From positions 1 to 25,754 of the IMG/VR virus record IMGVR_UViG_3300025880_000094: 25,754 nt of DNA. The stretch is one strand, 5' to 3'. How positions within the stretch are numbered: the first letter of the stretch is position 1; the number at the start of each line of letters is the position of its first letter. This DNA is from a virus. The notes below the pieces were generated by a model. That model made no database searches. It worked only from the letters and a program-made list of their open reading frames with translations, and was not told the DNA's origin. Position numbers and translations under genes: made by a program. Positions 3,010 through 8,707 of the stretch are shown here, one piece after another.

Positions 3010-3686
3010 TTTTATTTGATGCAGACAGTTTAGTTTATTCATCTTGCTGTGGTGTTGATGACATACTAGATGAAGCTATAGGAAAGTTTGATGAGATATT
3101 TATGTCAATTGTAAATAGACTAGAAGAAACCTACCAAATAGAAAGAGTAATTACTTTTAACAATAGCAAAGGTAATTTTAGAAAACTACTAGACCCAAAC
3201 TACAAAGCAAACAGAAAGAAACAAGAACATCCTAAATTACTATTTGAGATGCACGAACACATAGCAGAGATATACTCTACTAAAAACTCTTATGGTGTAG
3301 AGACAGATGATTTAGTTGCAACGTATTGGAAAACACTAACAGACGAGTTAGGACACAACAATGTAATAATAGTATCACTTGACAAGGATTATAAGCAACT
3401 ACCTTGCCTTATGTATAACTATCACTACAAACACCAAGAGATAATAGATATAAGTCCTTACGAGGCTTTATATAACTTCTATGAGCAAATGATAGTTGGA
3501 GATTCAGCAGACAATGTAAACTACTGTAAAGGTTATGGTAAAGCATATGCAAAGAAACTATTTAAAGATTGTAACACACATTATCAATTTACAAAAAAAA
3601 CATATGAGTTATTTAAAACAATATATAAATCAAAAGCAAAATTAAAATACATACAATGTTATAATCTTTTAAAACTAAGAACATGA
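3003..3686 (+). CDS. 5'-3' exonuclease / flap endonuclease (FEN-like)
   Basis: The 227-residue protein shows the acidic metal-binding clusters of the PIN/FEN nucleases. These are FDAD at residues 5-8, ETDD at 100-103, DKD at 127-129 and GDSADN at 166-171. A helix-hairpin-helix-like stretch follows (CKGYGKAYAKKLF, from 175). NYKANRK at 66-72 matches the arginine/lysine arch region. Enzymes such as T5 D15 and T7 gp6 remove flaps, RNA primers and host DNA. It lies among replication genes, and the next gene begins within its last codons. Confidence 0.85.
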   Translation: MVVLFDADSLVYSSCCGVDDILDEAIGKFDEIFMSIVNRLEETYQIERVITFNNSKGNFRKLLDPNYKANRKKQEHPKLLFEMHEHIAEIYSTKNSYGVETDDLVATYWKTLTDELGHNNVIIVSLDKDYKQLPCLMYNYHYKHQEIIDISPYEALYNFYEQMIVGDSADNVNYCKGYGKAYAKKLFKDCNTHYQFTKKTYELFKTIYKSKAKLKYIQCYNLLKLRT

Positions 3687-3949
3687 GTAATATATTAAAC
3701 AAAGCAAACGAAATTATTAATTTAAGATCAGAAGAAAAAGAAAGGACTTACGGGCCATTTTCTGAAGGTATGAAAAGAGCTGCTATGATAGCATCAGGCG
3801 CAACAGGTAAAGACATAACTACCGAAGACATGTATATGTGCATGGTTGCGTTAAAACTATCTAGAGAGTCTTATAATCACAAAGAAGATAACCTGCTCGA
3901 TGCTGTTGCATATTTAGGGGCATTAAATAATTTACACAATGAAATATAA
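3683..3949 (+). CDS. DUF6378-like protein
   Basis: This 88-residue protein has the pattern of a small all-helical phage family I know as DUF6378: an N-terminal helix, then ERTYGPF, then a segment with MYMCMVALKLSRES and a C-terminal DNLLDAVAYLGAL. The acidic DxxD-like C-terminal helix resembles MazG-type nucleotide pyrophosphohydrolases, which the family is often found beside. A nucleotide-pool role is inferred. It overlaps both neighbours and leads into the putative base-modification genes. Confidence 0.65.
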   Translation: MSNILNKANEIINLRSEEKERTYGPFSEGMKRAAMIASGATGKDITTEDMYMCMVALKLSRESYNHKEDNLLDAVAYLGALNNLHNEI

Positions 3950-4886
3950 CTCTTGTATGATTAATCTACTTGGTAACGTTCCAACTAGAATGAATTCCCA
4001 TAATGCTGGTTGGACTTATTGTCTAAAAAGTATTGCTAGTAGCAAATCAAATTATAATATAGAATTAATTAATGAACCAAAAAGAATACATGAATTTACA
4101 ACTGTTATTATAAACAACGGAATAAATTACAAGAAAGATGTATGGAATTTTTTTGGAGGTGTACAACAAAAGACTTTAGATTATTTACATGAGTTAAATA
4201 AGTACAAAGGATTATTATTTACATTTAACGAGCCAATTGATTTTAGATCATTATTAAAAAGAAAAGAAATAACAACTATTCCAAGTAAACAGGTATTTTG
4301 TGGAAGCACTATCGATAATAAGTTAATATTAGGAGATTCTCATTCGTTATCTATTTACAAACCAGGCTGGGGGATAAATAGACTAGACGGTAAAACATTA
4401 CATGGTTTTTTAAAAGAACCTTACAAGTATTTTAATAAAGAAAATACCACTGATTTAACTTTGTATTTTGGGAATATAGATATTAGATTTCATTTGATGC
4501 GTCAACCAAACCCAGGGCAAGCGGTTTTATTGTTAGTTAATAGATTGTTAAACTTTATTGCAGAAATAAGTCCAGATATTAATGTAACTATTCAAGAGTT
4601 ATTACCTATTGAAGATGAATCAAGAAAGATACCAGGTTCAGGAATGTATAAAGGACAACCATTTTATGGTAGTAAAGAAGAAAGACAAAATTTAGTTAAC
4701 TTATTTAATATACTAATTAAAGATTCTATTGATCATAATCATCCATATAAAGTACAAAAGATGTGGTTAGATTACCCATTACATTTTAACTGTATGGAAG
4801 CAAGACAATCTGTACACATTAGACCAGATTATTATTTACATAAAAACACTTTTATAAATGATACAAGAGTTCCAACGTTATTATAG
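3939..4886 (+). CDS. GDSH / SGNH-like protein in putative base-modification cluster
   Basis: In this 315-residue protein, GDSHS at 132-136 resembles the catalytic block I of SGNH/GDSL hydrolases. FGNIDIRFH at 177-185 resembles block III in the variants that read F-G-x-I-D-x-R. Near the C-terminus, HIRPDYYLH (293-301) could supply the Asp/His pair of block V. Such enzymes act as esterases, acyl- or O-acetyl-transferases. The first 125 residues match nothing I know. The gene overlaps DUF6378 upstream and the glycosylase-fold gene downstream by 29 bases, so it belongs to the same operon. Its substrate is unknown; its place beside a DNA-base transferase is suggestive. Confidence 0.5.
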   Translation: MKYNSCMINLLGNVPTRMNSHNAGWTYCLKSIASSKSNYNIELINEPKRIHEFTTVIINNGINYKKDVWNFFGGVQQKTLDYLHELNKYKGLLFTFNEPIDFRSLLKRKEITTIPSKQVFCGSTIDNKLILGDSHSLSIYKPGWGINRLDGKTLHGFLKEPYKYFNKENTTDLTLYFGNIDIRFHLMRQPNPGQAVLLLVNRLLNFIAEISPDINVTIQELLPIEDESRKIPGSGMYKGQPFYGSKEERQNLVNLFNILIKDSIDHNHPYKVQKMWLDYPLHFNCMEARQSVHIRPDYYLHKNTFINDTRVPTLL

Positions 4887-5769
4887 TAAAGCAAAGTTAA
4901 ATCAAGAAAGATTATATCAAGGATACGATTGGTCTAAAGAAGATATTAATGACGATTTAATATGGCATGTACCAATATACGATGTAGTAAATAGAAGATA
5001 TGCAGCGTTTAGTAGTTTGTTAGAAGCTATTAGACTTAAAGAAACAGATCCAAAAGGAAATGGTAAATGGTTTAAACATACTGATGTTAATGATTTTGAT
5101 TTTATGTTATTATGTTATTTGTTTAGATTATGCGGTAGCGGTATTAATTATTTTCCTAAAACTAATCATCCTTATGGCACTCACGGATTTGGTAATTTTT
5201 GGATAGTTGACAGTCTACTAAACGGCAGAGATAATTTTAAAGAATGGATTGATGATTTACCTGATAAAAAATTCAGTGATAATAAAGGTTATTTACTACC
5301 AATGATTCCTAAAGGATTAAGAAATTTTATTTTAGATGATAGTTATAACTTAGTTTTATATATTTTAGATAATATGTCAGGCATTGAAATTTATGAGGTA
5401 GTGGACTTAGGTAATGAGTGGTTATTAAGAAGAGGATATAAAAGACAAAATTTTGTTTTGTGTGCATTTGCAATGGACTTAGCTGAATACTTTCCTGAAA
5501 TAATAACTAGAGATAGTAGAGTTTATGTTGGATCTAACGCGAAAAAATGTTTAAGAGAAATATTTCCTAATACAAAAGGAATAGGTTCTAATATAAAAAC
5601 AACTAACGATTGTCTTGACCACTTATGTAATTTGACAGGCGGTCATAGCTTTAAATATGACATGGAAGATGTGGCTTGTGATTTTATAAGATACAAAAAT
5701 AATTTTCAAAGTAAACATCATATAGAATATAATAACGGAATAAAATATTATAACAATGTTTCTAAATAA
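4858..5769 (+). CDS. DNA-glycosylase-fold protein of the amino acid:DNA transferase (aGPT-PPlase) type
   Basis: The protein has 303 residues. The middle has RLCGSGINYFP (90-100) and HPYGTHGFGNFW (104-115). Next is a helix-hairpin-like stretch: GYKRQNFVLCAFAMDLAEYFP at 193-213, then RVYVGSNAKKCLREIF at 221-236. It ends with EDVACDFIRY (270-279). This order resembles the G.GpfmA..i..DL / W..pGpGA..GL / E..LCeFdKY pattern of the glycosylase-fold families of phages with hypermodified thymine (alpha-glutamyl/putrescinyl thymine pyrophosphorylases, now called amino acid:DNA transferases). Those enzymes replace an activated 5-hydroxymethyl group with an amine. Neighbouring PLP and hydroxymethylase-like genes agree. 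The match is by pattern only; a true DNA glycosylase is possible. Confidence 0.6.
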   Translation: MIQEFQRYYSKAKLNQERLYQGYDWSKEDINDDLIWHVPIYDVVNRRYAAFSSLLEAIRLKETDPKGNGKWFKHTDVNDFDFMLLCYLFRLCGSGINYFPKTNHPYGTHGFGNFWIVDSLLNGRDNFKEWIDDLPDKKFSDNKGYLLPMIPKGLRNFILDDSYNLVLYILDNMSGIEIYEVVDLGNEWLLRRGYKRQNFVLCAFAMDLAEYFPEIITRDSRVYVGSNAKKCLREIFPNTKGIGSNIKTTNDCLDHLCNLTGGHSFKYDMEDVACDFIRYKNNFQSKHHIEYNNGIKYYNNVSK

Positions 5770-6649
5770 ACAAACTTACATAGAAAATAAAGACTTAAAT
5801 AAATATACTTTAGAAGAATATTTAAGTTTTACTAGTGGTTTTAAATCTTCATTTAAACCATTTGTAGTTAAACAAATAAATGGATTTAACGTAATAGATG
5901 AATCAGAAGCTTGCAGTGTTGGATATAAAGCCAGGTCAGCAGAGTTTTTAATGCAGCGACTACAAGAGTTAGGCGTCAAACATATAGTATATGTTCAACC
6001 TAGAAGAGGTTATGCAGGTATCTCTTTAGCTTGGTTATGTAAAGAGTATAATATGAAGTTAACATTAATAATGCCAGCTTCAAAAGAAGTTAGTGATCAT
6101 CAAGCTCTTTGTATTGAGTTAGGTGCAGAGGCAAAATTTGTTAGAATAGCTGCTATGCCAAATGCTAATAAGTATGCAAAAGAATATGCCGACAAAATTA
6201 GTGCATTTTTTATTCCATTAGGTTTAAATCATCCACATGTTATTGCAGGAGGAGTAAGAGTTATTTATGATTTTTTTAAAAATAATAAACATCCTGAAAC
6301 AATGTGGAGTGTAATTAGCACAGGTGTTTTACAAAGATCTATGCAAATAGCTTTACCTGACACAAAATTTAAAGCAGTTGCTGTTGCTAGAAATATACAA
6401 CAAGGGGAATTAGGTCGTGCTGATTTTTATAGTTATCATAAACCTTTTAATAGTCTTTCAGATTTAATACCAGATAAATTTAATTGCGAGTCAAGCTATG
6501 ATTCAAAAGGGTGGCACTATATGTGTAAATATGGAAAAAAAGGAGATTGGTTTTTTAGTGTAGCTGGTAATGCAAATAAACCTACTATTAATAAACTTAA
6601 AATAAATTCTTATAGAGATTGGAATGACTTAAAAGATTTAAAAATATGA
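5756..6649 (+). CDS. PLP-dependent enzyme, fold type II (tryptophan-synthase-beta / cysteine-synthase-like)
   Basis: This 297-residue protein reads like a compact fold-type-II PLP enzyme. The probable Schiff-base lysine is Lys 58 in SVGYKARSAEF, the equivalent of SxKDRxA in cysteine and threonine synthases. The PRRGYAGISLAWLCKEY segment (82-98) matches the substrate-binding SxGNHGxAxAxxA region in shape. A Rossmann-like stretch ends in ELGAEAKFV, and STGVLQR (188-194) can serve as the phosphate loop. Such enzymes do beta-elimination or replacement on amino acids. In this place it may make or trim the amino-acid side chain attached to DNA bases. It overlaps both neighbours. Confidence 0.72.
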   Translation: MFLNKQTYIENKDLNKYTLEEYLSFTSGFKSSFKPFVVKQINGFNVIDESEACSVGYKARSAEFLMQRLQELGVKHIVYVQPRRGYAGISLAWLCKEYNMKLTLIMPASKEVSDHQALCIELGAEAKFVRIAAMPNANKYAKEYADKISAFFIPLGLNHPHVIAGGVRVIYDFFKNNKHPETMWSVISTGVLQRSMQIALPDTKFKAVAVARNIQQGELGRADFYSYHKPFNSLSDLIPDKFNCESSYDSKGWHYMCKYGKKGDWFFSVAGNANKPTINKLKINSYRDWNDLKDLKI

Positions 6650-7302
6650 TTAAAACAATTTTTGAAAACGCAGAAGATGCTTATGCTTATCAACTTAATA
6701 GAATACTAGTTTATGGTGTAGACTTTGATAATACAAAAGCTTTGTTCAATATAGGTTTTACAATAAAAAATCCTATGGATAATTACATTACAAACAAAGA
6801 GCGTAATTGGAGCTTAGAATATGCTAAAGCTGAATGGGAATGGTATAAGTCAGGTGATCGTAGCATAGACAAATTAGGTGATATTTACGGTAAGATACCA
6901 CCTATATGGGAAAAAATGGCCGATAAGAATCGTAATGTTAATTCTAATTATGGTTATCAATGGCAACGTAATAATCAAATAGACTATGTATGTGCTATGC
7001 TTAGACAAAACTCTAATACTAGACAAGCGGCAATAAGTATATATGATGCTAAAGAGTGGGGATCATATACAAAAGATACTCCATGTACTTATGCAGTACA
7101 GTTTACAATACTAGACAATAAGTTAAACATGTCAGTTTTGATGCGTTCTAATGACATCTGGTATGGTTTTTGTAATGATCAATATCAATTCTCAATGTTA
7201 CAAGAATTAGTTGCTAAGAGGTTATCTATTGAGATAGGAACTTACTACCATTTTGCACACAACTTACATTTATATAATAACATAAAAAATAAAATAACAT
7301 GA
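6646..7302 (+). CDS. Thymidylate-synthase-like deoxypyrimidine hydroxymethylase
   Basis: The core motifs of the thymidylate synthase / nucleotide hydroxymethylase family are present: NSNYGYQW, RQAAISIYD, the nucleophile Cys 147 in DTPCTY, RSNDIWYGF (167-175) and a C-terminal HFAHNLHLY. At 218 residues it is shorter than cellular TS (about 264) and ends soon after the HLY motif. In an ungapped alignment, the Asn that selects dUMP in TS falls on Asp 178 (FCND), as in dCMP hydroxymethylases; Asn 177 sits beside it, so the base preference is open. The likely reaction is 5-hydroxymethylation of dUMP or dCMP using methylenetetrahydrofolate, feeding the base-modification genes upstream. Confidence 0.82.
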   Translation: MIKTIFENAEDAYAYQLNRILVYGVDFDNTKALFNIGFTIKNPMDNYITNKERNWSLEYAKAEWEWYKSGDRSIDKLGDIYGKIPPIWEKMADKNRNVNSNYGYQWQRNNQIDYVCAMLRQNSNTRQAAISIYDAKEWGSYTKDTPCTYAVQFTILDNKLNMSVLMRSNDIWYGFCNDQYQFSMLQELVAKRLSIEIGTYYHFAHNLHLYNNIKNKIT

Positions 7303-7613
7303 AATTTAACGAAATAAGAAATTGGGCCAAAGATAAAGGCATACTAGATAAAGGAGATGTAAAAACACAATACATAAAACTTCAAGAAGAATGCGGTGAA
7401 TTAGCAGAAGCAATATTAAAACAAGACAAGTTAGAAATGTCAGACGCTGTTGGAGATATTATTGTAGTATTAACTTCTTTATCTGAACTTGGAGGATTTA
7501 AAATAGAATCAGCAATTGAAGGAGCTTGGTTAGAAATAGCAAACAGAAAAGGTAAAATGATTAATAACAACTTTGTAAAAAATACAGATCATATAATAGC
7601 AGGAACAGAATGA
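7299..7613 (+). CDS. MazG-like nucleotide pyrophosphohydrolase
   Basis: This 104-residue all-alpha protein carries the MazG metal site: EECGE at residues 30-34 and MSDAVGD at 47-53 (acidic residues Glu 30, Glu 31, Glu 34, Asp 49, Asp 53). Family members split dNTPs or other NTPs to the monophosphate and pyrophosphate. Beside a nucleotide hydroxymethylase it could remove canonical dNTPs or supply the monophosphate substrate. MazG proteins are also linked to ppGpp control, so this is inference. It overlaps both neighbours by four bases. Confidence 0.8.
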   Translation: MKFNEIRNWAKDKGILDKGDVKTQYIKLQEECGELAEAILKQDKLEMSDAVGDIIVVLTSLSELGGFKIESAIEGAWLEIANRKGKMINNNFVKNTDHIIAGTE

Positions 7614-8029
7614 GAACATATCTAGCAAAAATTAAAATACCAGATAACTTAAAAAAACAATCCGTAGGTTATATAGGCGAAAAAGTATTTGAACACTGGT
7701 TTAAAGTAAATTATAATGACGAACAATTGTTTAAACAAAAAGCAGACAGAGATTATAACAAAATAGATTATGCTGATGAAAAAGGTTTTAAATATCAAGT
7801 TAAAACAACAAGTAAAAAATCTTATACATTTAATTGTTCTACTGATAAAATAAAAAACCATTTAACATGTGATTACTATATTTTAGTACAATTAAAAAAT
7901 AACTACGCATACATAGAAAACTTTAGAACAAAACAATATATATTAGATAATATTATACAAAGCTTTAAATACAAAAACTCTTCATACGTTAAACCAGAGA
8001 ATTTATTGCAAGAAGTATTATCTATATGA
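7610..8029 (+). CDS. PD-(D/E)XK-fold nuclease-like protein
   Basis: The 139-residue protein has an N-terminal SVGYIGEKVFEHWF helix with Glu 24, then Asp 53 in NKIDYADE, then a beta strand with YQVKTTSKKS (residues 62-71). E...D...QxK is the layout of restriction-endonuclease-fold nucleases that use Gln in place of the last acidic residue. It may be a Holliday-junction or restriction-like nuclease, or a degraded member. Similar small proteins occur in many phages beside replication genes. The target is unknown. Confidence 0.6.
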   Translation: MRTYLAKIKIPDNLKKQSVGYIGEKVFEHWFKVNYNDEQLFKQKADRDYNKIDYADEKGFKYQVKTTSKKSYTFNCSTDKIKNHLTCDYYILVQLKNNYAYIENFRTKQYILDNIIQSFKYKNSSYVKPENLLQEVLSI

Positions 8030-8256
8030 AAAAAAAAGATAAAGATTTAGTTAAAGAGTTTTACAACCTTGCATTATACGATTACGAAAAAGGTACAGAC
8101 TTAGAAGAACTAAAAATTATCTTAAACGACTATGAAAATAAAGAAATGTATTTACAATGTGCAGGTATTAATTTAGCAATACAATACATAGAATTCTTAA
8201 TATATTTAGAAATAATAAAACATATAAACGAAATAAATGACAACTCAACAAATTAA
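8026..8256 (+). CDS. Small helical protein, 76 aa, unknown
   Basis: The product is a short, charged, helical protein with a Lys-rich start (KKKDKDLVKEF) and a hydrophobic C-terminal helix (LAIQYIEFLIYLEIIKHI). No family is recognised. It overlaps the nuclease gene by four bases and the DnaA-like gene by 20, so it is probably expressed with them. Confidence 0.5.
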   Translation: MKKKDKDLVKEFYNLALYDYEKGTDLEELKIILNDYENKEMYLQCAGINLAIQYIEFLIYLEIIKHINEINDNSTN

Positions 8257-8707
8257 ACAGTTAATAGAAACAGAACTAAACATAGAAATAAATGCTAAAA
8301 GTAGAAAGAGAGAAAACGTCTATGCTAGAGCTATATACTTTAAAATATGTAGAGATAAGACATATTTATCTTTAAAAGAAATAGGAGATACTCTTGAATT
8401 AAATCACGCAACAGTATTACATGGTATAAATAAAGTGTTTCCTACATTTGAGATATATAACCCTGAGTATATGGAAGTATACAGGAAAATAAAAAATAGC
8501 GAAGAATACATACCTGTAGAAGACAGATACAATACATTAAAAGAAGACTACTATAAATTACAAAGCAAATACGATAGTATCAAAGACGCTAAGACAAGAA
8601 AAGAATATAACTCTTTAGTTAAAATAATAAAAGAAATACCTGAAGAAAAACTAGACGTAGCTAACCTAAGAATAGACGCAATGGTTAAAATGCTAAAGAC
8701 TTACTAA
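8237..8707 (+). CDS. Free-standing DnaA domain IV-like DNA-binding protein
   Basis: Residues 20-70 of this 156-residue protein match the C-terminal DNA-binding domain of bacterial DnaA. SRKRENVYARAIYFKICRD corresponds to the helix before the HTH. LSLKEIGDTLELNHATVLHG corresponds to the SLxEIGxxFgRDHTTVLHA signature, with NHATVLH at the DnaA-box-reading helix. There is no AAA+ ATPase part. The rest is a charged helical, probably coiled-coil tail (about 90-156). It may bind DnaA-box-like sites at the phage origin or in the host, or act as a regulator. It is the last gene before the terminase promoter. Confidence 0.75.
   Translation: MTTQQIKQLIETELNIEINAKSRKRENVYARAIYFKICRDKTYLSLKEIGDTLELNHATVLHGINKVFPTFEIYNPEYMEVYRKIKNSEEYIPVEDRYNTLKEDYYKLQSKYDSIKDAKTRKEYNSLVKIIKEIPEEKLDVANLRIDAMVKMLKTY

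Follow-up and report, generated by a model that had tools for sequence, protein, structure and literature searches.

A candidate two-layer system for cytosine hypermodification in a marine phage

Phage pathways that hydroxymethylate a pyrimidine and then build on it are the closest described comparisons for the gene block analysed here, which lies at positions 3683-7613 of IMG/VR record IMGVR_UViG_3300025880_000094 (25,754 bases, analysed whole and referred to as the window). The 5-hydroxymethylcytosine (5hmC) pathway of phage T4 comprises the dCTPase gp56, the dCMP hydroxymethylase gp42 and beta-glucosyltransferase (beta-GT; family BGT). Phages M6, ViI and phiW-14 have a thymidylate synthase (TS)-family hydroxymethylase, a 5-hydroxymethyl-deoxyuridine (5-hmdU) DNA kinase (HMUDK), an amino acid:DNA transferase (ADDT) and a pyridoxal phosphate (PLP) enzyme, and in 5-hmdU pathways the PLP enzyme acts on the appended amino acid. 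To our knowledge, the known amino-acid-type hypermodifications of phage DNA all start from 5-hydroxymethyluracil. The Aeromonas phages 44RR, 31 and 25 encode a dCMP hydroxymethylase without a glucosyltransferase, and whether phages of this type bear other 5hmC modifications has been left open (Petrov et al., PMC2993671). The 5hmC carbamoyltransferase phages (MetaGPA, PMC8670742) combine a dCMP-type hydroxymethylase with an enzyme that acts on the 5hmC hydroxyl.

The block in the window probably encodes a two-layer system for cytosine hypermodification. Like T4, it has a dCMP-type hydroxymethylase, a nucleotide pyrophosphohydrolase and a BGT-like N-domain that we propose acts at 5hmC in DNA; unlike T4, it has neither the sugar-binding C-domain nor a glucosyltransferase, but an SGNH domain, a glycosylase-fold protein and a PLP enzyme. 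With M6, ViI and phiW-14 it shares a TS-family hydroxymethylase, a glycosylase-fold protein and a fold-type-II PLP enzyme related to that of M6. It differs from them in a predicted specificity for cytosine and not uracil, in having no recognisable HMUDK, in its additional GDSH protein, and in that its glycosylase-fold protein, X303, is unmatched by the ADDT or HMUDK hidden Markov models (HMMs). The Aeromonas phages, which are T4-like, resemble it in their dCMP hydroxymethylase and in a GDSH homologue (an HMUDK-like fusion in the 31/44RR group), whereas neither a PLP enzyme nor X303 was found near their GDSH genes. The carbamoyltransferase family of the MetaGPA phages is unrelated. If this interpretation is correct, amino-acid-type chemistry also reaches cytosine, and a new enzyme, for activation or for attachment, substitutes for the known kinase.

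Organization of the gene block

An earlier sequence-only reading of this DNA described five open reading frames (ORFs) at 3939-7613 as one hypermodification pathway. All five are present at these coordinates, with neighbours overlapping head to tail by a few bases, and the motifs it had picked out (Cys147, Lys58, GDSH, VGSNAKKCL and EDVACDF) are conserved among relatives. We add a sixth member, the DUF6378 ORF at 3683-3949.

3683-3949, + strand: small DUF6378 protein whose gene opens the exchangeable block (Pfam PF19905, 1.9e-13; in 34/40 dereplicated cassettes)
3939-4886, + strand: GDSH protein, with a T4 beta-GT-like N-domain and an SGNH-hydrolase C-domain (hhalign, Foldseek)
4858-5769, + strand: X303, an all-helical glycosylase-fold protein, ADDT/5-hmdU kinase-like by fold (AlphaFold2 model, Foldseek against BFVD)
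5756-6649, + strand: fold-type-II PLP enzyme (PF00291, 7e-12; Schiff-base Lys58 at 5927-5929)
6646-7302, + strand: predicted dCMP hydroxymethylase (Cys147 at 7084-7086; cytosine-specificity Asp178 at 7177-7179)
7299-7613, + strand: MazG-type NTP pyrophosphohydrolase (PF03819, 1.3e-8)

Pfam recognises the PALP (7e-12), TS (1e-24) and MazG (1e-8) proteins and returns zero matches for the GDSH protein and X303. We propose that the MazG-type protein is a dCTP-pool enzyme like T4 gp56; the DUF6378 product is probably an accessory nucleotide-pool protein.

The hydroxymethylase has a cytosine-type active site

The TS-like protein has the thymidylate-synthase fold with a catalytic cysteine (PF00303, 1e-24), Cys147, that is invariant among relatives. 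Its family profile finds T4 gp42 as the top match in the PDB (1b49, E = 1e-28). We aligned it with T4 gp42 and with the enzymes of the 5-hmdU phages SPO1, M6, ViI and phiW-14. At the specificity site (position 177 of E. coli thymidylate synthase), the window (Asp178) and T4 proteins carry Asp and the four dUMP hydroxymethylases Asn; the residue after the catalytic Cys is Thr in the former and Asn in the latter; and a Trp of the window and T4 enzymes is Met or Ala in the other four. The motif NSNYG is also common to the window protein and gp42. In all, the window hydroxymethylase agrees with gp42 at each discriminating position, and with the four dUMP hydroxymethylases of this comparison at none. 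Exchange of Asn177 for Asp switches specificity from dUMP to dCMP, and Asp marks contigs with modified cytosine (Yang et al., PMC8670742). Asp occupies the site in 156 of the 156 TS-like proteins on X303-bearing loci in which it is readable (three fragments with an unreadable site are left out of the count) and in 39/39 proteins of the dereplicated set.

These residues identify the TS-like protein as a predicted dCMP hydroxymethylase of the T4 type. The modified base is most likely cytosine, as a 5hmC derivative, and not thymine, because the hydroxymethylase is of the gp42 type and the N-domain of the GDSH protein is T4 beta-GT-like, a 5hmC-type domain.

The sequence-only reading had derived the final base from 5-hmdU, as in M6, ViI and phiW-14. 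The relationship of the PLP enzyme to that of M6 and the glycosylase fold of X303 would suit such a thymine route, but we rejected it on the active-site residues of the hydroxymethylase, which are of the cytosine type in 156/156 proteins, with no Asn at the specificity site. The BGT-like domain of the GDSH protein and the presence of GDSH in T4-like 5hmC phages also argue against it, as does the kinase search. No 5-hmdU DNA kinase was recognised in the window, as that reading had said, and the search for one elsewhere in the genome, which it had proposed, gave none: HMUDK (PF18723) is present in M6, W-14 and ViI and absent from the records of 15 relatives, which, like the window, may be fragments. 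We consider a thymine hypermodification highly improbable.

The GDSH protein is a chimera

The GDSH protein comprises a T4 beta-GT-like N-domain followed by a C-domain with the SGNH-hydrolase fold.

3948-4256, + strand: beta-glucosyltransferase N-terminal-like domain, residues 4-106 (NFFGG at 4146-4160)
4314-4868, + strand: SGNH-hydrolase-like domain, about residues 126-310 (range from motifs and predicted secondary structure)
Within 4314-4868, + strand: SGNH-domain sites, namely GDSH Ser134 (4338-4340), GNID Asn179 and SVH His293

Its AlphaFold model (mean pLDDT, the model's confidence score, 90) matches SGNH hydrolases in Foldseek with probability 1.0, the nearest being platelet-activating factor (PAF) acetylhydrolase and sialate O-acetylesterase. 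The protein thus combines the SGNH fold with the GDS serine, the GN asparagine and the catalytic histidine of that family, and these three residues (Ser134, Asn179 and His293) do not vary across 28 relatives.

The N-domain, about a hundred residues long, resembles the N-terminal domain of T4 beta-GT. PF09198 (BGT) is matched by three GDSH relatives (best E = 0.001), and hhalign aligns GDSH 4-106 with BGT 2-110 (95.5%, E = 1.5e-8); both families have an NFFGG motif, and the residues after it are similar as well. In a decoy control with 93 ORFs of at least 220 amino acids from phage loci, the only outliers were true GDSH relatives and two beta-glucosyltransferases, the latter scoring 45.8 and 38.9 and the next ORF 25.1. 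The NFFGG loop is presumably positioned at the DNA in the BGT-DNA complex. The C-terminal UDP-sugar (GT-B) domain of T4 beta-GT is absent from the GDSH protein, where the SGNH fold stands instead. A literature search for an SGNH DNA-modification enzyme found none, and the earlier remark that this protein is not a known member of such pathways is supported: it is new to hypermodification.

An alternative is that the GDSH protein works as an esterase, either taking off or trimming a group or altering a small-molecule donor, and that X303 and the PLP enzyme carry out the base chemistry by themselves. SGNH proteins are mostly hydrolases, and the PAF acetylhydrolases and sialate O-acetylesterases are the nearest folds. 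However, the fused BGT-like domain and the repeated fusion to a glycosylase-fold partner (below) argue that both proteins act on the same DNA base, and we regard this alternative as unlikely.

X303 and the PLP enzyme

The AlphaFold2 model of X303 is all helical (pLDDT 87.6). Against predicted viral structures (Foldseek, BFVD), it matched two models named 'Amino acid:DNA transferase' (E = 5e-10 and 1.5e-4), aGPT-PPlase1, an aGPT pyrophosphorylase (0.019), 5-hmdU DNA kinases including that of phiW-14 (0.12), and endonuclease III (0.44). Its helical fold is thus shared with the ADDT/HMUDK glycosylase-fold clan (E from 5e-10 to 0.12, TM 0.38-0.78), although the top ADDT-named match may itself be a distant X303 relative. 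Weak repeated matches in the PDB to DUF2419 (queuosine salvage) were not used.

We also tried to place X303 in the ADDT or HMUDK families by sequence. Narrow, broad and distant profiles gave hhalign E values of about 0.2-0.8, and HMM searches of the relatives were negative; the ADDT HMM (PF18724) matched neither the window X303 nor any of 18 X303/GDSH-bearing records, with an M6 control at 2e-48. Because these searches failed, the kinship of X303 with ADDT and HMUDK is, as judged from the structural model, one of fold and not of family membership. The earlier label of the 4858-5769 product as a glycosylase-fold transferase, comparable to aGPT-PPlase and ADDT, therefore stands for the fold, through the Foldseek matches of the AlphaFold model to ADDT and 5-hmdU kinase models, and fails for the profiles. 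On the strength of the model, we propose that X303 is a DNA-base transferase or an activating enzyme. Its relatives are encoded in 201 IMG/VR stretches, with none in 50,697 phage records and no homologue encoded by bacterial genomes.

In the PLP enzyme (PF00291, 7e-12), Lys58 is invariant and aligns with the Schiff-base lysine of CysK, in agreement with the earlier assignment of a fold-type-II PLP site at this residue. The ADDT gene of phage M6 is followed by one for a PALP protein, and the PALP families of M6 and the window are related (hhalign 92.8%, E = 4e-7) and have a C-terminal YD.K.W signature in common. By analogy, the window enzyme could act on an appended amino acid or prepare a free one. 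Relatives of this family also occur in another DNA-modification context: in Erythrobacter phage R6L and Microcystis phage Mae-JY30 (L271 4900-7329 and L272 4117-5705), they are fused to, or lie next to, N6/N4-type DNA methylase and ParB-like genes.

A mobile module on top of a predicted 5hmC pathway

We examined co-occurrence in 40 dereplicated X303 clusters with enough flanking sequence, some of which had entered the set through GDSH or PLP. All 40 contain GDSH, 39 contain TS, 38 PLP, 34 DUF6378 and 29 MazG; the window's terminase is recognisable in only 13/40. Each of the 23 clusters found through X303 alone contains GDSH, PLP and TS. Because GDSH, TS and PLP accompany X303 in 40/40, 39/40 and 38/40 clusters, the association is not due to chance, and the proposal that the five genes form one hypermodification pathway is supported. 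Gene order varies (TS-X303-PLP-GDSH in L330, L333 and L334), and GDSH and X303 form a single polypeptide in L047/L048 and in the 225 kb phage L326. GDSH relatives extend further, to more than 560 stretches.

Two phages, L088 and L089, provide a natural swap. They are 90-94% identical to the window in DNA on both sides of one segment:

3684-6621, + strand: exchangeable block DUF6378-GDSH-X303-PLP (about 0.2 kb with another small ORF instead in L088 and L089)

The four genes of the block are lost jointly and the hydroxymethylase and MazG genes are kept. DUF6378-GDSH-X303-PLP is therefore a mobile unit, a predicted decoration module added to a 5hmC pathway that also occurs by itself. The small ORF at the module's place in L088 (7779-7975) has similar counterparts after TS in 60 kb phages (L092, L095).

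The block might alternatively serve nucleotide or amino-acid metabolism not directed at DNA, given how common PALP and MazG enzymes are in metabolism. This is very unlikely: X303 is in no bacterial genome, the coupling to the dCMP hydroxymethylase is strict, and the block has BGT-like and glycosylase-like domains. We also rejected the cassette as a defence system, as a PADLOC scan was negative for its proteins.

GDSH proteins outside the X303 group

GDSH homologues occur in the T4-like Aeromonas phages 25, 31 and 44RR, Stenotrophomonas phage IME13 and Tenacibaculum phages PTm1/PTm5. We confirmed a dCMP-type hydroxymethylase in Aeromonas phages 25 and SW69-9. This makes GDSH a candidate, open to testing, for the gene behind 5hmC decoration in Aeromonas phages 25, 31 and 44RR, should their 5hmC be decorated at all. 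Directly upstream of the homologue in phage 25 lie a UDP-galactopyranose mutase gene and a glycosyltransferase-like gene (L269 3764-7035), and a galactofuranose-type decoration of 5hmC is possible there.

The GDSH proteins of the 31/44RR group carry a fused C-terminal domain that weakly matches HMUDK_hel. Free-standing relatives of this domain score above the Pfam cut-off and are encoded after GDSH and inositol-3-phosphate synthase in L305 and L315. They belong to a sister cassette of DUF6378, GDSH, inositol-3-phosphate synthase, a small HAD-like ORF and the HMUDK-like protein (L305 6560-10766, L315 1226-4867), which recurs in L308-L314, L316 and L319, in some cases with TS and dUTPase. Its gene content suggests an inositol-derived cytosine modification. 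The cassette of the window is widespread, moves between phages as a unit and has this version with inositol-phosphate synthase as its sister. As GDSH has an HMUDK_hel-type partner there, what stays the same is the pairing of GDSH with a glycosylase-fold protein, accompanied by a third enzyme that differs. We therefore interpret the two partners as carrying out activation and attachment, and assign supply or tailoring to the additional enzyme.

Proposed mechanism

In the first, constant layer, MazG would reduce the dCTP pool and the T4-type hydroxymethylase would convert dCMP to 5-hydroxymethyl-dCMP, such that phage DNA is built with 5hmC. In the second, exchangeable layer, the beta-GT-like domain of GDSH would bind, and probably flip, 5hmC in DNA, and the SGNH domain would act on its CH2OH group. 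Together, GDSH and X303 would activate this group and attach a small molecule. This is probably an amino acid, and the PLP enzyme would supply or trim it. What the sequences show directly are the gene identities, the cytosine-type active site, the domain architectures, the co-occurrence, the fusions and the natural swap; we infer that the substrate is DNA, that an amino acid is attached, in which order the steps run and how activation and attachment are divided.

For that division, we lean slightly towards GDSH as the activator, creating a 5-acyloxymethyl leaving group that replaces the missing kinase, and X303 as the attacher. The roles are nearly balanced because the fold of X303 favours a transferase and the HMUDK-like partner in the sister cassette favours an activator. 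A more far-reaching reading, which we hold only tentatively, is of a new class of DNA-base decoration in which a beta-GT-like/SGNH chimera activates or esterifies 5hmC in DNA and its glycosylase-fold partner swaps in differing small molecules, amino-acid-derived with the PLP enzyme and inositol-derived in the sister cassette, giving cytosine hypermodifications not yet described.

Several results weigh against the two-layer system. The usual Asp three residues ahead of the catalytic His is replaced by Gln290 in GDSH, near which Glu287 is invariant; the BGT match spans only about 100 residues; and BGT is absent among the 50 PDB matches listed for GDSH. X303 gave nothing significant against the PDB and is unlinked to ADDT or HMUDK by sequence profiles, and no 5-hydroxymethyl-dCMP kinase was identified in the 25.7 kb record.

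A somewhat doubtful alternative is that the roles are swapped, with X303 as a 5hmC-activating kinase, GDSH as the transferase, and the PLP enzyme or inositol-phosphate synthase supplying the molecule. In its favour, the sister cassettes pair GDSH with a protein above the HMUDK_hel cut-off and with inositol-3-phosphate synthase, and X303 also weakly matches 5-hmdU kinase models. However, the strongest annotated fold matches of X303 are ADDT models, and SGNH enzymes are acyl-transfer enzymes for which we know of no use of phosphorylated acceptors.

Genomic context and further observations

The window is the complete record, a linear and probably fragmentary sequence of a small tailed marine phage. 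Its terminase (TerL) shares 53% identity with the terminases of Flavobacterium psychrophilum phages, which makes it a flavobacterial-type phage, as had been suggested for its host. One further ORF adjoins the block:

7610-8029, + strand: possible PD-(D/E)XK nuclease, small ORF overlapping the MazG end (IDYADEKGFKYQVK motif by eye; PADLOC mREase_II, 0.006)

Its part in the pathway is uncertain; such a protein could cut unmodified (host) DNA. Positions 8237-8707 encode a phage protein with a DnaA C-terminal DNA-binding domain (PF08299, 4e-12). In the Gram-positive Enterococcus phage VFW, TS-like, dUTPase and beta-glucosyltransferase genes are adjacent (L280 1701-4059), which suggests glucosylated 5hmC.

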